Source of the DNA: Sphingomonas kaistensis
GTDB lineage: Bacteria > Pseudomonadota > Alphaproteobacteria > Sphingomonadales > Sphingomonadaceae
NCBI RefSeq assembly: GCF_011927725.1
Contig: NZ_JAATJC010000001.1
Coordinates: 496,001 to 560,000 of the forward strand
Length of the DNA: 64,000 nucleotides
Direction: 5' to 3'
Shown: one piece after another, positions 7,286 to 64,000 of the stretch
Layout of the letters: every line of letters begins with the position of its first letter
Position numbering within the stretch: the stretch's first letter is position 1
Notes under the pieces: generated by a model
What the model saw: the letters and a program-made list of their open reading frames with translations, nothing else
Database searches by the model: none
Told to the model about the DNA's origin: nothing
Program-made: the position numbers and the translations under genes

Positions 7286-8014
7286 ATGAGCGGGTTTCTT
7301 CGCCTCGGCGTCAACATCGACCATGTCGCGACCATCCGTAATGCGCGCGGCGGCGACTTTCCCGATCCGGTCCGCGCCGCCCACGTGGCCGAGGCCGCCG
7401 GCGCGCAGGGCATCACCGCGCACCTGCGCGAGGATCGCCGCCACATCCGCGACGACGACCTCGTCCGTCTCAAGAACGAGATCGCGCTGCCGCTCAACCT
7501 CGAGATGGCGGCGACCGACGAGATGTTGCGAATCGCGCTTGCGACCCGCCCCCATGCCGCCTGCATCGTTCCCGAGAAGCGCGAGGAACGCACCACCGAG
7601 GGCGGGCTCGACGCCGCCGGTCAGTTCGACCATCTGCGCCGCTTCATCGGCGAGCTTGGCGCCGCGGGCATTCGCGTGTCGCTGTTCATCGAGCCCGACG
7701 CGGCGCAGATCGCCGCCGCCGTCCGCCTCGGCGCACCGGTAGTCGAACTTCACACTGGCCGCTACGCCCACCTGCCCGAGGAGGAGCGTGAAACCGAACT
7801 GAGGCGTCTCGCCGACGCTGCCGCGCTGGCCGCCAAGAACGGGATCGAACCGCACGCCGGGCATGGGCTGACCTATGCCAATGTCGTCCCGATCGCCGCC
7901 GTGCCGCAATTCGCCGAGCTCAACATCGGCCATTTCCTGGTCGGCGAGGCGATCTTTGTCGGGCTCGACACCAGCATCCGGCGGATGCGCGACCTGATGG
8001 ACAGCGCCCGATGA
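7286..8014 (+). CDS. pdxJ: Pyridoxine 5'-phosphate synthase
   Basis: A 242-residue TIM-barrel enzyme that condenses deoxyxylulose 5-phosphate with 3-amino-2-oxopropyl phosphate to form pyridoxine 5'-phosphate, the last ring-forming step of the DXP-dependent vitamin B6 route. Signatures are the N-terminal [43 protein letters not shown], and the C-terminal AGHGLTY and [14 protein letters not shown]. The length is normal. The same gene order with acpS and lepB downstream is common in proteobacteria. The start is the ATG at 7286, opening the conserved first strand after four residues. Confidence 0.95.
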
Positions 8015-56963: not shown

Positions 56964-57863
56964 ATGACCAGCGCATGGCCCAATCTCTCCGACCTCTTGC
57001 TTGCCACCGATGCGGCGGCCCCGATCGGACTGGTCGGGGCGCCGCTCGGCGCGGGATCGGTCACCCCGGGCCGCTGCGACCTCGCCCCGGCGAGGCTTCG
57101 GGCGGTGATGAAGCGGATCGGGCTGTACGACATCGACACCGGTCGCGAGCTCGGCTCCGCAATCGCCGACCATGGCGATGCTGCGATCGGCGACCTCGAT
57201 ATCGAGGCGGCGACCGGGCCGATCCGGTCGGCCGTGAAGGATGCGGTCCGGCGCCATTCGCTGACTGTGCTGATCGGTGGCAATAATGCCGTCACCCGCC
57301 CGGGGGTGCTGGGCATGGCGGAGGCGCTCGGGCTCCCGCTCGACAAGGTCGGTCTGATCACGCTCGATGCCCATTTCGACATGCGCGGGCTTGAGAACGG
57401 CTTGTCGAACGGCAATCCGGTCCGGGCGCTGATCGAGGACGGCCTGCCCGGACGCAACATTGTGCAGATCGGGCTGGCGCCTTGGGCGAACAGCCGCGAG
57501 ATGCACGAATTCGCCCAGGGCGAGGGCGCCGCCACGGTGAGCCTTGGCAATTTCCACGGCATGGGCGTGACGTGGACCGTCGATCACGCCTTCGAGTGCC
57601 TCGAGCATGTCGAGGCGATCCTGCTCGACTGCGATATCGACGTCATCGACCGAAGCCAGTTCCCGGGGGCCCCGGGGGCGCGGGCAGGCGGCATGAGCGT
57701 CCATGACTTCTTCAAGGCCGTTCGCCTGTTCGCCGCGCATCGTAAGGTCCGCGCGATCGACCTCACCGAATGGGACCCGCCGCTCGACCAGACCGACCTC
57801 AGCGCGCTGACCGCCGGACGCTGGCTGGCGGAGGTCGTCGCCGGCTTCGAATCCCGCGCCTAG
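56964..57863 (+). CDS. hutG: Formimidoylglutamase (arginase family)
   Basis: A 299-residue ureohydrolase-fold protein. With hutI, hutU and hutH adjacent, it should split N-formimino-L-glutamate to glutamate and formamide. The metal motifs are DAHFD (135-139) and DCDIDVID (222-229). The first arginase motif GGDHS is changed to GGNNA (Asn107-Asn108), losing the usual His ligand of one manganese. SRPGFPGAPGARAGG-like loop follows (PGAPGARAGGMS). Start ATG at 56964. It is convergent with the kinase gene, sharing a CTAG across their stops. Confidence 0.85.
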   Translation: MTSAWPNLSDLLLATDAAAPIGLVGAPLGAGSVTPGRCDLAPARLRAVMKRIGLYDIDTGRELGSAIADHGDAAIGDLDIEAATGPIRSAVKDAVRRHSLTVLIGGNNAVTRPGVLGMAEALGLPLDKVGLITLDAHFDMRGLENGLSNGNPVRALIEDGLPGRNIVQIGLAPWANSREMHEFAQGEGAATVSLGNFHGMGVTWTVDHAFECLEHVEAILLDCDIDVIDRSQFPGAPGARAGGMSVHDFFKAVRLFAAHRKVRAIDLTEWDPPLDQTDLSALTAGRWLAEVVAGFESRA

Positions 57864-59431
57864 CTCAACAGCTCGTCAAGCGAGGCCGACAGGGCCGCGG
57901 CGCTGATCGGCTTCTTGAGGATCCGGGCGCGGCCATTCACCGCCTTGTCGATCGCGTCGCTGTCGGCATAGCCCGTCAGGAACAGCAGTTTGAGGTCGGG
58001 GTGCTGCTCCAGCACCCGGGCGGCAAGCTGCGCGCCGTTCATCCCGGGCATGGCGTAATCGAACAGCGCCAGATCCGGGGTCATGCGTTCGAGCTCGAGC
58101 AGCGCCTGCGGCCCATTCTCGGCCTCGGTCACCCGGTGACCATCCGCGCGAAGCATGTCGGCCACCGCCTGGCGAACCTCCGGATCGTCGTCGACCAGCA
58201 GCACGTTGACCTTGCGCCCCGGCGAGGCCGATTGCCCGCCCCCTCGCACCGCCGGAGCCGCAGCCTCGGCGGCGGGGGTGCGCGGGAGGAGCAGGGTCAC
58301 TGCCGTCCCCTCGCCCGGCTCGCTGTCGATGCGCAGGTCGCCGCCGGCAGCGCGCGCGACGCCATAGGCCATCGAAAGGCCGAGCCCGGTACCGCGCCCC
58401 GGCCCCTTGGTGGTGAAGAAAGGCTCGAGCGCGCGCGCCACGATGTCGGGGGTCATGCCGACACCCTGATCGACGATCCGAACCGCGACGCGGTCCGCCG
58501 CATCGACCTCTGCCCGGACGAGCAAGCGGCCGCCCGACGGCATGGCGTCACGGCCGTTGATGGCGAGATTGATGATGGCAAGCTCCAGCTGGGTCGCATC
58601 GGATCGGACGGTGCCGAGATCCGGCCCGACATCGACCTGTAGGTCGACGGTCGGGCCAACCGAGTTGCGGAGCAGGCCGGACATGTCCCGGAGCAGCTTG
58701 CCGACATCGATGTCGGTCGCCTCCAGCCGCTGGCGACGCGAGAAGGTCAGCAACTGGCCGGTGAGCTTGGCTCCGCGCTCGCTGGCAAGCGCGGCATTGG
58801 CGGCCCAGCGCAGGACCTTGTCCTTGTTGTCGGGCGCGAGCTTGATCAGTTCGAGGTTGCCCGAAATCGCCTGCAACAGATTGTTGAAGTCATGCGCGAT
58901 GCCGCCCGTCAACTGGCCGACCGCTTCCATTTTGTTGGCCTGCACCAGCGCAGCCTCGGCCCGTTCGCGCTGCGCCACTTCGCCGCGCAATTGCTCCAGC
59001 GCGGCGTCACGTTCGGCTAGCGCGGCGGCAAGCTCGTCATTCTTCTTCTGGAGCATCGAGGGGCTGGGGATTGCCAGGGCCTTTGGCAGCAAAGGCCACA
59101 ACAGGATGGCGGTGGGTACGCTGGCGATTGCGGTGATCGCCTTGATCGTCGCTTCGGCGGCATAATCGCCGTTCCAGAGGTTCCAGATCCCCATGATGTG
59201 AGTCAGGCCGCACGACATGATGAACAGGGCGAACAGCCAGAACATCTTGCCGAATTCGATGTCGGGCCGCTTGCGGACAAAGGTGACCAGCGCCACCGGG
59301 ATCGAGAAATAGGACGCCGCGATCAGGGCGTCCGACACGACATGGGTCCAGATCAGCTCGGGCTGCCACAGCAGGCAATAACCGTGCGGCGCATAGTCGC
59401 CGGAGAAGAAAGCCTTGGCGGAGTCGAGCAT
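57860..59431 (-). CDS. Hybrid histidine kinase with ethylene-receptor-like (ETR1) membrane sensor
   Basis: A 523-residue sensor kinase. Residues about 25-115 are three membrane helices with the pattern of the plant ETR1 ethylene-binding domain. Asp34, Tyr41 and Pro45 (SDALIAASYFSIP), Ile71, Cys74 and His78 (IMSCGLTH) have exactly the same spacing as ETR1 Asp25, Tyr32, Pro36, Ile62, Cys65, His69; Cys and His hold Cu(I). A coiled coil (130-165), HisKA with phospho-His180 (GGIAHDFNN), HATPase (LAINGRDAM, DQGVGM, GRGTGLGLSMAYG) and a receiver domain (Asp458 in FDYAMPGMNG, Lys507) follow. No GAF domain. The ATG at 59431 follows AGGAT. Confidence 0.9.
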   Translation of the reverse strand: MLDSAKAFFSGDYAPHGYCLLWQPELIWTHVVSDALIAASYFSIPVALVTFVRKRPDIEFGKMFWLFALFIMSCGLTHIMGIWNLWNGDYAAEATIKAITAIASVPTAILLWPLLPKALAIPSPSMLQKKNDELAAALAERDAALEQLRGEVAQRERAEAALVQANKMEAVGQLTGGIAHDFNNLLQAISGNLELIKLAPDNKDKVLRWAANAALASERGAKLTGQLLTFSRRQRLEATDIDVGKLLRDMSGLLRNSVGPTVDLQVDVGPDLGTVRSDATQLELAIINLAINGRDAMPSGGRLLVRAEVDAADRVAVRIVDQGVGMTPDIVARALEPFFTTKGPGRGTGLGLSMAYGVARAAGGDLRIDSEPGEGTAVTLLLPRTPAAEAAAPAVRGGGQSASPGRKVNVLLVDDDPEVRQAVADMLRADGHRVTEAENGPQALLELERMTPDLALFDYAMPGMNGAQLAARVLEQHPDLKLLFLTGYADSDAIDKAVNGRARILKKPISAAALSASLDELLS

Positions 59432-59513: not shown

Positions 59514-60530
59514 TCAGCCGTTCCGGAGCAGGTCGGCCAGGCCAGCGGGAGTCAGGGGATGGCTGAGCTGCTCGCAGCGGCACTGGTCGGGGCGCTTGTC
59601 GGGTCGTCTCCTCAGCAGCCTGGTACCGTGGCGAAAGCGGCCATTGGTGACCTGATCGTAGAGGACTTCCACCACCAGTTCCGGGCGCAAGGGGACCCAC
59701 TCCGCCGTCCGTTCACGCGACCAGCGGCTGGGCTTGTCCGGCCGGTTGCCGGTGAAGCCCTCTCCGCCACCCAGCGGAGCGAGCTCGGCCGCCCACTCTC
59801 GCCGCTCGGCCGCCTTGAAGCTGGAACAGAAGCCGACATGATGAAGCAGCCCCTCGTCGCCGTAGAGGCCGAGCAGAAGCGAAGCGACGCCCCCGCCGCT
59901 GGCAGCGCTGCGGTAGCCGCCGACGACGCAATCAGCGCTGCGATGGTGCTTGATCTTCAGCATCGCGCGTTCACCCGCGCGATAGGGTTCGTCACTGCGC
60001 TTGGCGATGACGCCGTCGAGCGCTCCGCCGCTCCGTTTCAGCCAGTCACGGGCCTGCGCGATGTCGCCGGTTTGCGGTGACAGGAGGAGCGACGGCGCCT
60101 TCGCCTTTTGTACGAGCCGCTCGAGCCACTGGCGACGTTCCGCCAGCGGTGTTTGCTCCAGTTGCTGCTTGCCCCAGCCCAGGAGATCGAACGCGATGAA
60201 CAAGGCCGGCCTCTCGGCGGCGAGCTTGCGGACTCGGCTCTCGGCCGGATGAAGGCGCTGCGACAAGGCGTCGAAGCTGAGGCCGTCCGCGGTTTCGATC
60301 ACTAGTTCGCCGTCCAGCGCCAGGTCGCCCGCAGGCAATCCCGCGATCAGCGTTTCGATTTCGGGGAAGTAGCGCCCGAGCGGCTTTCCCGAGCGGGACC
60401 ACAAGGCGACCTCGCCCCCGGTCCGCAGCGCAAGGCAGCGGAAGCCGTCCCATTTGGGCTCGTAACGCCACTCGGATCCAGCCGGCAGCTCGTCGACCAG
60501 CAGCGCTTCCATCGTCGCGGGCGCGGTCAT
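59514..60530 (-). CDS. ATP-dependent DNA ligase (LigC/LigD-ligase type)
   Basis: A 338-residue enzyme: nucleotidyltransferase domain with KxDG motif EPKWDGFR (AMP-lysine Lys26), LDGELVI, FDLLGW and EGVIAKR-like DGVIAKRSDEPY, then an OB domain ending TRLLRRRPDKRP. It seals nicks using ATP; small two-domain ligases of this kind work in repair. It has no polymerase or nuclease domain and no Ku gene is in view. Its start overlaps the stop of the exonuclease III gene (ATGA), suggesting the two act together in base-excision or strand-break repair. Confidence 0.92.
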   Translation of the reverse strand: MTAPATMEALLVDELPAGSEWRYEPKWDGFRCLALRTGGEVALWSRSGKPLGRYFPEIETLIAGLPAGDLALDGELVIETADGLSFDALSQRLHPAESRVRKLAAERPALFIAFDLLGWGKQQLEQTPLAERRQWLERLVQKAKAPSLLLSPQTGDIAQARDWLKRSGGALDGVIAKRSDEPYRAGERAMLKIKHHRSADCVVGGYRSAASGGGVASLLLGLYGDEGLLHHVGFCSSFKAAERREWAAELAPLGGGEGFTGNRPDKPSRWSRERTAEWVPLRPELVVEVLYDQVTNGRFRHGTRLLRRRPDKRPDQCRCEQLSHPLTPAGLADLLRNG

Positions 60531-61297
60531 TCGAATGCGATCCACGCCGGTGCATGGTCACTGGTCTTGGGCAAGGCGCGGACCGATTTGTCGACCCCCG
60601 CCGCCTTGAGGCGCCCGGCGGCGGCGGCGTTCAGGAGCAGGTGGTCGATCCGCAGCCCGGCGTCCCGCGCGAACGCGTTGCGAAAGTAATCCCAAAAGGT
60701 GAACACCTGCTCGTCGGGGTGGAGGCGGCGCAGGGCGTCCGTCCAGCCGGCGTTCGTGAGGCGTTCGAACGCGTCCCGCACGTCCTGCACGAACAGCGCG
60801 TCCTCGGTCCAGCGCTCGGGCTTGTAGACGTCGCGCTCAGTCGGAATGATATTATAGTCGCCGGCCAGCACGACCGGCTGGTCGAGCGGAAGGACTTCGG
60901 CGGCAAGCGCCTCGAACGCGGCGATCCACCGGAGCTTGTAGTCAAACTTGGGACCGGGCCGGGGATTGCCGTTCGGGAGATACAGGCAGCCGATCAGGAC
61001 CCCGTTGACCGCGGCCTCCAGATACCGGCTTTGCGTGGGATCGGGGTCGTCCGGAAGCCCTCGGCGCGTCTCCACCGGGGTGCAGCCGCGGGCCATGATG
61101 GCGACGCCGTTCCAGCTTTTCTGCCCATGCCAGATCGCCCCGTAGCCGGCCTCCTCCAGCGCCTTGAGCGGGAACTTCTCGTCCGGCGCCTTGAGTTCCT
61201 GCAGGCAGACGACATCCGGCTGGGTCGCCTCGAGCCATTCGAGCAGCACCGGCAGCCGTCCGTTGACGCCGTTCACATTGTAGGTCGCGATCCGCAC
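60527..61297 (-). CDS. xthA: Exodeoxyribonuclease III
   Basis: A 256-residue Mg-dependent AP endonuclease/3'-exonuclease. VRIATYNVNGVNGRL opening, LQELKAPDEKFP (metal Glu), LAGDYNIIPTERDVY (Asp, Asn), RIDHLLLN and TSDHAPAW (catalytic His). The start is the GTG at 61297; an ATG 69 bases upstream would add 23 low-complexity residues. It leads the xthA-ligase pair, possibly also the sensor kinase gene 82 bases after the ligase. Confidence 0.92.
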   Translation of the reverse strand: MRIATYNVNGVNGRLPVLLEWLEATQPDVVCLQELKAPDEKFPLKALEEAGYGAIWHGQKSWNGVAIMARGCTPVETRRGLPDDPDPTQSRYLEAAVNGVLIGCLYLPNGNPRPGPKFDYKLRWIAAFEALAAEVLPLDQPVVLAGDYNIIPTERDVYKPERWTEDALFVQDVRDAFERLTNAGWTDALRRLHPDEQVFTFWDYFRNAFARDAGLRIDHLLLNAAAAGRLKAAGVDKSVRALPKTSDHAPAWIAFE

Positions 61298-61415
61298 GAA
61301 GGTTGAACCGCCAGCGACCGCCGAAGCTCCCCCGCGAACCGGGCCGACAGGCGAGGTAGGGTCCAACCGCGCTTCTTCATTCGCCGCGCTGGACTTCCCG
61401 TTCTAAGGGACGGGC

Positions 61416-63258: not shown

Positions 63259-63335
<77 letters not shown>

Positions 63336-63377
63336 CCAATATCGCAGCGACCGCAGGCGACCGCCGTTGAGACAAGA

Positions 63378-63412
63378 ACGCCGCCGCCACCCCAAAGGGC
63401 AAGCGGCGGCGT
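63378..63412 (-). other. Hairpin between 5S rRNA and tRNA-fMet
   Basis: A 10-bp stem ACGCCGCCGC / GCGGCGGCGT with a 15-base loop, on the minus strand followed by TTCTTG. It may be a processing stem or weak terminator within the operon. Confidence 0.5.
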
Positions 63413-63442
63413 ACTTCAACATGTGAATGGGTTTCTTCTCGT

Positions 63443-63590
63443 GCCCGCCGGCTACAAAGCCTGGCGACGACCTACTCTTCCGCAGCTTAAGCTGAAGTAC
63501 CATCGGCGCAGTCTGGTTTCACGGCCGAGTTCGGGATGGGATCGGGTGGGTCACAGACGCTATGGTCACCAAGCTATGAAGCCGGCGGGC
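63443..63590. repeat. Inverted repeat flanking 5S rRNA
   Basis: GCCCGCCGGCT (63443-63453) and its perfect complement AGCCGGCGGGC (63580-63590) bracket the 5S gene. It would form a precursor stem, probably cut during rRNA maturation. Confidence 0.75.
63460..63574 (-). rRNA. rrf: 5S ribosomal RNA
   Basis: About 115 bases. The start CTTGGTGACCATAGCG and end GTCGTCGCCAGG pair in the terminal stem; CCCGATCCCATCCCGAACTC is the conserved loop A-C region. Ends are estimated to within a few bases. Confidence 0.93.
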
Positions 63591-63687
63591 AAGAGAAGTT
63601 CTAGAAATCGATACTGACCAAATTCTTGGCGTCATCTAGCTGAAAGACACACCCATCGATCAGCAGAACTGTCGATGATGGTGGGAC

Positions 63688-64000
<313 letters not shown>

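Follow-up and report, generated by a model that had tools for sequence, protein, structure and literature searches.

The window, a stretch of 64,000 nucleotides from Sphingomonas kaistensis, encodes a protein that, judging from its sequence and by analogy with characterized receptors, is likely an inner-membrane Cu(I)/ethylene receptor with a hybrid histidine kinase under its control. The protein is probably able to sense ethylene gas and looks like one more of the already known bacterial ethylene receptors.

Domain organization of the kinase

An earlier note on this DNA had described the gene as a hybrid kinase bearing an ETR1-type ethylene/copper sensor domain, and Pfam agreed by placing HisKA, HATPase_c and a receiver on one chain behind an ETR1_N domain (Table 1); the fused receiver that it had read from the translation is real. 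The profile comparison with the ethylene-binding domain family, proposed at the time as a check, gave a match far beyond chance, which covered the full model at 132.2 bits, the cut-off being 27. Domains and motif residues can be read directly from the translation: H180, N292, D321, G347, D458, T486 and K507, which we take to be the kinase and receiver motif residues, were all found by sequence check.

The 50 residues separating ETR1_N from HisKA are charged, coiled-coil-like by eye and devoid of any Pfam match, as had been anticipated together with the lack of a GAF domain. Since Pfam matched no GAF domain, the architecture of the protein is not that of plant-type ETR1; PAS and photoreceptor domains were not matched either. 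The absence of GAF appears ordinary because, among the related loci, L106 consists of sensor, HisKA and HATPase_c only and L103 has a PAS domain instead. The profile search found a single ETR1_N copy in this genome. The cell-cycle hybrid kinase CckA was rejected as an identification, as the best CckA model in NCBIfam scored 271.6 bits against an equivalog cut-off of 1000 and covered residues 151-522 only. A PDB sequence search with the sensor gave no credible match (best E 0.055).

Table 1. Features of the receptor gene and its neighbours in the window
Feature	Position	Strand	Basis and remarks
Ethylene-receptor-type hybrid histidine kinase	57860..59431	-	ORF, ATG at 59431, 523 aa
ETR1_N sensor domain, residues 25-121	59069..59359	-	PF25487, E 8.6e-39; three hydrophobic stretches
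PHxxC motif, codons His16 to Cys19	59375..59386	-	N-terminal, beyond the Pfam model; conservation count
Linker after helix 3, residues 122-171	58919..59068	-	No GAF/PAS match; coiled-coil-like by eye
HisKA dimerisation/phospho-acceptor domain, residues 172-234	58730..58918	-	PF00512, E 1.2e-6; His180 in HDFNN
HATPase_c kinase domain, residues 278-385	58277..58600	-	PF02518, E 2.7e-20; N292, D321, G347 motifs
Receiver domain, residues 410-517	57881..58204	-	PF00072, E 8.3e-22; Asp458 phospho-acceptor, Thr486, Lys507
Arginase-family gene (hutG), convergent neighbour	56964..57863	+	PF00491; synteny; marks the conserved locus
ATP-dependent DNA ligase, upstream neighbour	59514..60545	-	PF01068; synteny; on the kinase's strand
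Endonuclease/exonuclease/phosphatase family gene (xth), upstream neighbour	60527..61366	-	PF03372; synteny

The sensor site and a possible signalling path

The sensor domain holds D34, Y41, I44, P45, I71, C74 and H78, the counterparts of the seven ETR1 binding residues, together with K97. Six of the seven (Asp34, Tyr41, Pro45, Ile71, Cys74 and His78) had been listed previously with spacings of 7, 4, 26, 3 and 4; residues, spacings and gene boundaries are exact, and Ile44 adds the seventh. Y41, I44, P45 and I71 presumably correspond to Y32, I35, P36 and I62 of ETR1. Seven residues of ETR1 are described as needed for ethylene binding, and the ETR1 numbers C65, D25 and H69, as well as K91 for the lysine, are given in print (PMC11819568). 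K97 aligns with K98 of the Azospirillum protein, the counterpart of ETR1 K91.

Kyte-Doolittle hydropathy showed three main hydrophobic stretches, centred at about residues 39-45, 67-77 and 100-114, with lone positions 35 and 118 also exceeding the threshold; this agrees with the three membrane helices of the ETR1_N family and with the three N-terminal helices proposed earlier. The loop at 53-62 carries four positive residues, while the N-terminus and the 87-93 loop are acidic. This charge pattern suggests an N-outside topology in which D34, C74, H78 and K97 would lie toward the periplasmic half of the membrane.

The path that we infer, as regards topology, dimer, copper, ethylene, direction of response and downstream partner alike, would run as follows. 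By analogy with ETR1 and AzoEtr1, the three N-terminal helices would dimerise and hold Cu(I) between Cys74 and His78, in a pocket shaped by Asp34, Tyr41, Ile44, Pro45 and Ile71, and Lys97 would relay the state of this pocket. Binding of ethylene or a similar small olefin to the copper would shift the helices and, through the linker and the HisKA/HATPase_c unit, alter autophosphorylation of His180. Asp458 in the fused receiver would then accept the phosphate and probably hand it on to a distinct phosphotransfer protein or response regulator whose gene lies elsewhere. Signalling via the fused receiver, which the earlier note had suggested, is plausible from the motifs. No regulator gene adjoins the kinase among the open reading frames around the locus and the four neighbours scanned with Pfam; the genome as a whole has 45 receiver matches, and an HPt domain was matched four times in it, in long open frames of 794 and 1157 codons and in short frames of 164 and 96.

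A domain that binds Cu(I) may also report copper or redox state as its natural signal, ethylene binding being incidental. Cys74, His78 and the N-terminal His/Cys pair are conserved as this would demand, and a Cu(I) binding constant of 1.3e-15 M was obtained for the ETR1 sensor domain in purified form (PMC6586836). Yet every residue relevant to ethylene is kept, beyond the two copper ligands, and ethylene elicits a response in the bacterial relative that has been examined (PMC11819568). The genomic context bears on both sides. Pfam was run on four neighbours only, namely hutG, the ligase, xth and an MFS gene, and pointed to nothing related to ethylene, copper or plants in their products, which leaves the kinase without a visible tie to plants or ethylene but equally without a copper gene among the scanned proteins. 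Copper-sensing kinases usually adjoin copper genes. On this balance we regard a copper or redox signal as unlikely and retain the ethylene receptor as the preferred reading. ACC deaminase, considered as a possible sign of plant association, had no match in this genome, and the idea was dropped; 3 of 37 genomes matched weakly, none of them above the cut-off.

A PHxxC motif before helix 1

Most bacterial members of the family keep a P-H-G-x-C motif ahead of helix 1, outside the Pfam model, and to our knowledge it is absent from ETR1. Conservation of the motif was tallied over 105 domains retained from 108 distinct hits, which came from 108 of the 110 loci; the fragments dropped were two pieces of L057 and the remnant L009. 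Where the site was intact (D34, Y41, P45, C74 and H78 present), H16 and C19 occurred together in all 90 domains, against 7 and 9, respectively, of the 15 domains with a degenerate site. The corresponding Fisher p values of 2e-8 and 3e-6 are nominal, since the sequences are not independent and kinship was ignored. F70 and S104 are likewise invariant in the 90 intact-site domains, and other positions are also lost from the degenerate ones (T107 kept in 5 of 15, with a nominal p below that of H16, P15 in 6 and S104 in 11), so that part of the association reflects general decay.

It is tempting to speculate that the motif works in the copper/ethylene site: periplasmic His16 and Cys19 might capture Cu(I) or assist in its retention, or they might link the dimer through a disulfide next to the site, a job that in plants falls to the RAN1 ATPase, which delivers copper, and to the N-terminal disulfides. 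We put this forward tentatively and consider it rather doubtful. RAN1 is the copper donor of ETR1 (PMC12586476), and a possible disulfide has been discussed for the N-terminal cysteine in cyanobacteria (PMC6682694). In the accessible portions of the open-access receptor literature, searched on the general subject, the histidine was not mentioned.

Distribution of the sensor

Profile searches found ETR1_N in 9 of 61 relatives, among them 8 of the 37 from the same genus (counting the genome of the window and one remnant), and in 48 of 396, 28 of 385 and 29 of 398 genomes drawn from the order, class and phylum, respectively, 28 of the last being above the cut-off; these samples overlap in part. 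None of the 14 control genomes had a match. Within the order, the distribution is thus patchy. Eighteen of 72,556 plasmid records carried the domain, and none of 50,697 phage records did at E 1e-4.

Across 71 domain hits, the site is well kept: D34 in 66, Y41 in 67, I44 in 68, P45 in 67, I71 in 66, C74 in 66, H78 in 69 and K97 in 68. These hits derive from the first 72 loci, of which L002 and L066 represent one contig and L009 is a remnant. The residue counts, those for PHxxC included, lean toward good matches because 25 further matches from the order, class and phylum samples, mostly weaker, came without a locus and stand outside them. The open frames of L037, L041 and L045 comprise 142-195 residues and little besides ETR1_N; they are possibly stand-alone sensors, or genes broken in assembly.

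One sensor, several outputs

The ethylene-binding domain (EBD) is coupled to outputs of different kinds. Among 71 loci, kinase and receiver share one chain in 21, a receiver open frame lies directly downstream of the EBD kinase in 13, and no downstream receiver was seen in 14, some of which have little downstream sequence. In six the kinase is cut by the end of the locus, and the remaining 17, remnant included, have no HisKA-type kinase by profile. One of these 17, L008 (715-1893), and one locus from the plasmid search, L107 (2113-3258), were scanned with Pfam and both proved to carry HWE_HK, which places ETR1_N on HWE-type histidine kinases in other sphingomonads; L006, L030 and L034 resemble this type by eye. 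L107 is the Blastomonas plasmid pBSY18_2, where two response-regulator genes follow the kinase on the other strand. In alphaproteobacteria the general stress response receives input from HWE kinases, and ethylene might for this reason be wired to stress in these sphingomonads.

Two further arrangements are worth noting. At L106:3950-5417, on the conjugative plasmid p2 of Novosphingobium sp. ES2-1 and near a type II cas9 gene, an EBD kinase overlaps a single-domain response regulator; this plasmid is a possible route for the spread of ethylene sensing. In Novosphingobium loci L070 (5944-7875), L071, L072 and L068, EBD frames of 665-673 codons encode a HELRT-type kinase with a fused receiver, and a further long open frame matching the receiver begins 47-65 bases after the stop.

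A question of origin, compatible with the receptor reading, is whether the fused receiver descends from a separate single-domain regulator gene, which would make AzoEtr1/AzoRR and the window protein a split and a fused version of the same system. The 13 loci with a receiver frame directly downstream point that way, as does the regulator adjoining AzoEtr1 itself (PMC11819568). Phylogenies of both parts did not bear this out. In the receiver tree, 13 of 18 fused receivers, that of the window included, grouped with four receivers of other proteins from this genome (support 97/93), while 8 of 15 split receivers formed a separate clade (97/95) and the remaining seven fell elsewhere, that of L103 beside a receiver of this genome. 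In the kinase-core tree, the window type belonged to a clade of 12 (100/98), and 8 of 11 EBD kinases with separate receivers lay in another clade of nine (96/93); each EBD clade was nearest to a sensor-less kinase of this genome, with weak (85/50) and moderate (93/82) support. The receiver tree has few columns and an unsettled bootstrap, and several branches are long. The background was drawn from 30 of the 45 receiver and 30 of the 34 HATPase matches of the genome, and 33 receivers and 23 kinase cores from this background entered the trees; as near copies, L066 was left out of both trees and L071 and L072 out of the kinase tree. No genome of the genus with a match had two sensor copies, and for that reason fused and split forms were not seen together there. 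Descent from the neighbouring regulator of the split systems was dropped, as the trees give it no support, and we consider such an origin quite improbable.

The locus and its history in the genus

The genes around the kinase include neighbours that we recognized as, and take to be, hutG, hutI, hutU, hutH and xth. In five relatives of the genus (L108 to L112, the first being the same place as L066, in Sphingomonas arenae SYSU D00720) the kinase adjoins hutG and has xth on its other side. A full-length ligase match intervenes between kinase and xth in three of the five; at the kinase locus of L109 the ligase was matched in pieces only, and at that of L110 no match to it was found. Cys74 and His78, whose loss in the closest orthologs the earlier note would have counted against its reading, are kept at this locus except in one decayed remnant. 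Identity between the window protein and the five orthologs was 77-83% for the sensor, 68-77% for the kinase core and 55-66% for the receiver; the sensor is thus the best-kept part. An Rfam scan of the window matched rRNA and tRNA at its right end only, where an rRNA operon ends on the minus strand (63262-64000; 23S end, 5S and tRNA).

Two genomes of the genus show the locus in other states. G016 has an empty site (L120:7700-7745), where the ligase match ends at 7719 and that of hutG at 7731, 12 positions apart and with no kinase, in a genome whose hutU and ligase are 96% and 81% identical to those of the window. In G019, a 68-codon remnant (L116:9313-9519) with D34 and Y41 replaced stands directly before hutG, and the ligase and xth lie beyond hutI and hutU, on the far side. 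From these sequences, the receptor gene may be read as long established in the genus with occasional losses, and it appears dispensable there. That the window sensor is itself a decaying relic, in a lineage losing its ethylene receptor, would fit the empty site and the remnant at the same place and the few matches in the genus, but is highly improbable given the intact site, kinase and receiver motifs and the best-conserved standing of the sensor among orthologs.

Implications

Ethylene is a gas given off by plants and some microbes. If the window protein binds it, sphingomonads would join cyanobacteria and Azospirillum as ethylene-reading bacteria. One order carries the same sensor on at least three kinds of output, and one genus has the receptor kept, deleted or decaying at a single chromosomal place; together these form a natural series in which the purpose of ethylene sensing could be studied. 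In turn, the PHxxC motif offers a direct mutational test of copper acquisition by bacterial receptors.

Comparison with known receptors

The kind of protein described here is not new, because putative ethylene receptors have already been stated to occur in many proteobacteria (PMC11819568). The open-access literature searched for Sphingomonas, Novosphingobium and alphaproteobacteria, in its accessible portions, yielded no description of a sphingomonad ethylene receptor.

The closest point of reference is AzoEtr1 of Azospirillum brasilense, described as a protein of 525 aa with D35, C75, H79 and K98 and an overlapping gene for a 135-aa regulator (PMC11819568). Locus L103, from A. brasilense Sp7, was obtained in the plasmid search; its 525-aa product consists of ETR1_N, PAS, HisKA and HATPase_c, with an overlapping receiver open frame at its end. 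L103, on a plasmid record that carries no annotation at this place, fits the printed description of AzoEtr1. The window sensor shares 52% identity with the L103 domain over 128 aligned positions. Residues 1-130 of AzoEtr1, produced in Pichia as a GST fusion, showed saturable 14C-ethylene binding, and disruption of the gene left cells with little or no binding (PMC11819568), so that proteins of this class are already known and the binding itself has been demonstrated for a relative. Both proteins come from the same bacterial class and share the sensor domain, the seven residues, the helix 3 lysine, PHGxC and histidine kinase domains for output. They differ in that AzoEtr1 contains PAS and is accompanied by a single-domain regulator from a separate, overlapping gene, whereas the window protein has its own receiver and no PAS match.

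SynEtr1 (slr1212) of Synechocystis PCC 6803 likewise combines a bacterial ethylene-binding domain with a histidine kinase and has one cysteine near its N-terminus (PMC6682694, PMC11819568), but it perceives light as well and passes its signal to the regulator slr1213, whereas no photoreceptor domain was matched in the window protein. Plant ETR1 shares the three-helix copper/ethylene domain, the kinase and the C-terminal receiver; it differs by its GAF domain and by disulfides near the N-terminus, at residues 4 and 6, and for the most part plant receptors do not need histidine kinase activity to signal (PMC6586836, PMC11819568). Finally, the other sphingomonad EBD kinases have the same ETR1_N sensor and differ in what follows it, L106 having HisKA and a separate regulator gene, and L008 and L107 an HWE_HK kinase without receiver.
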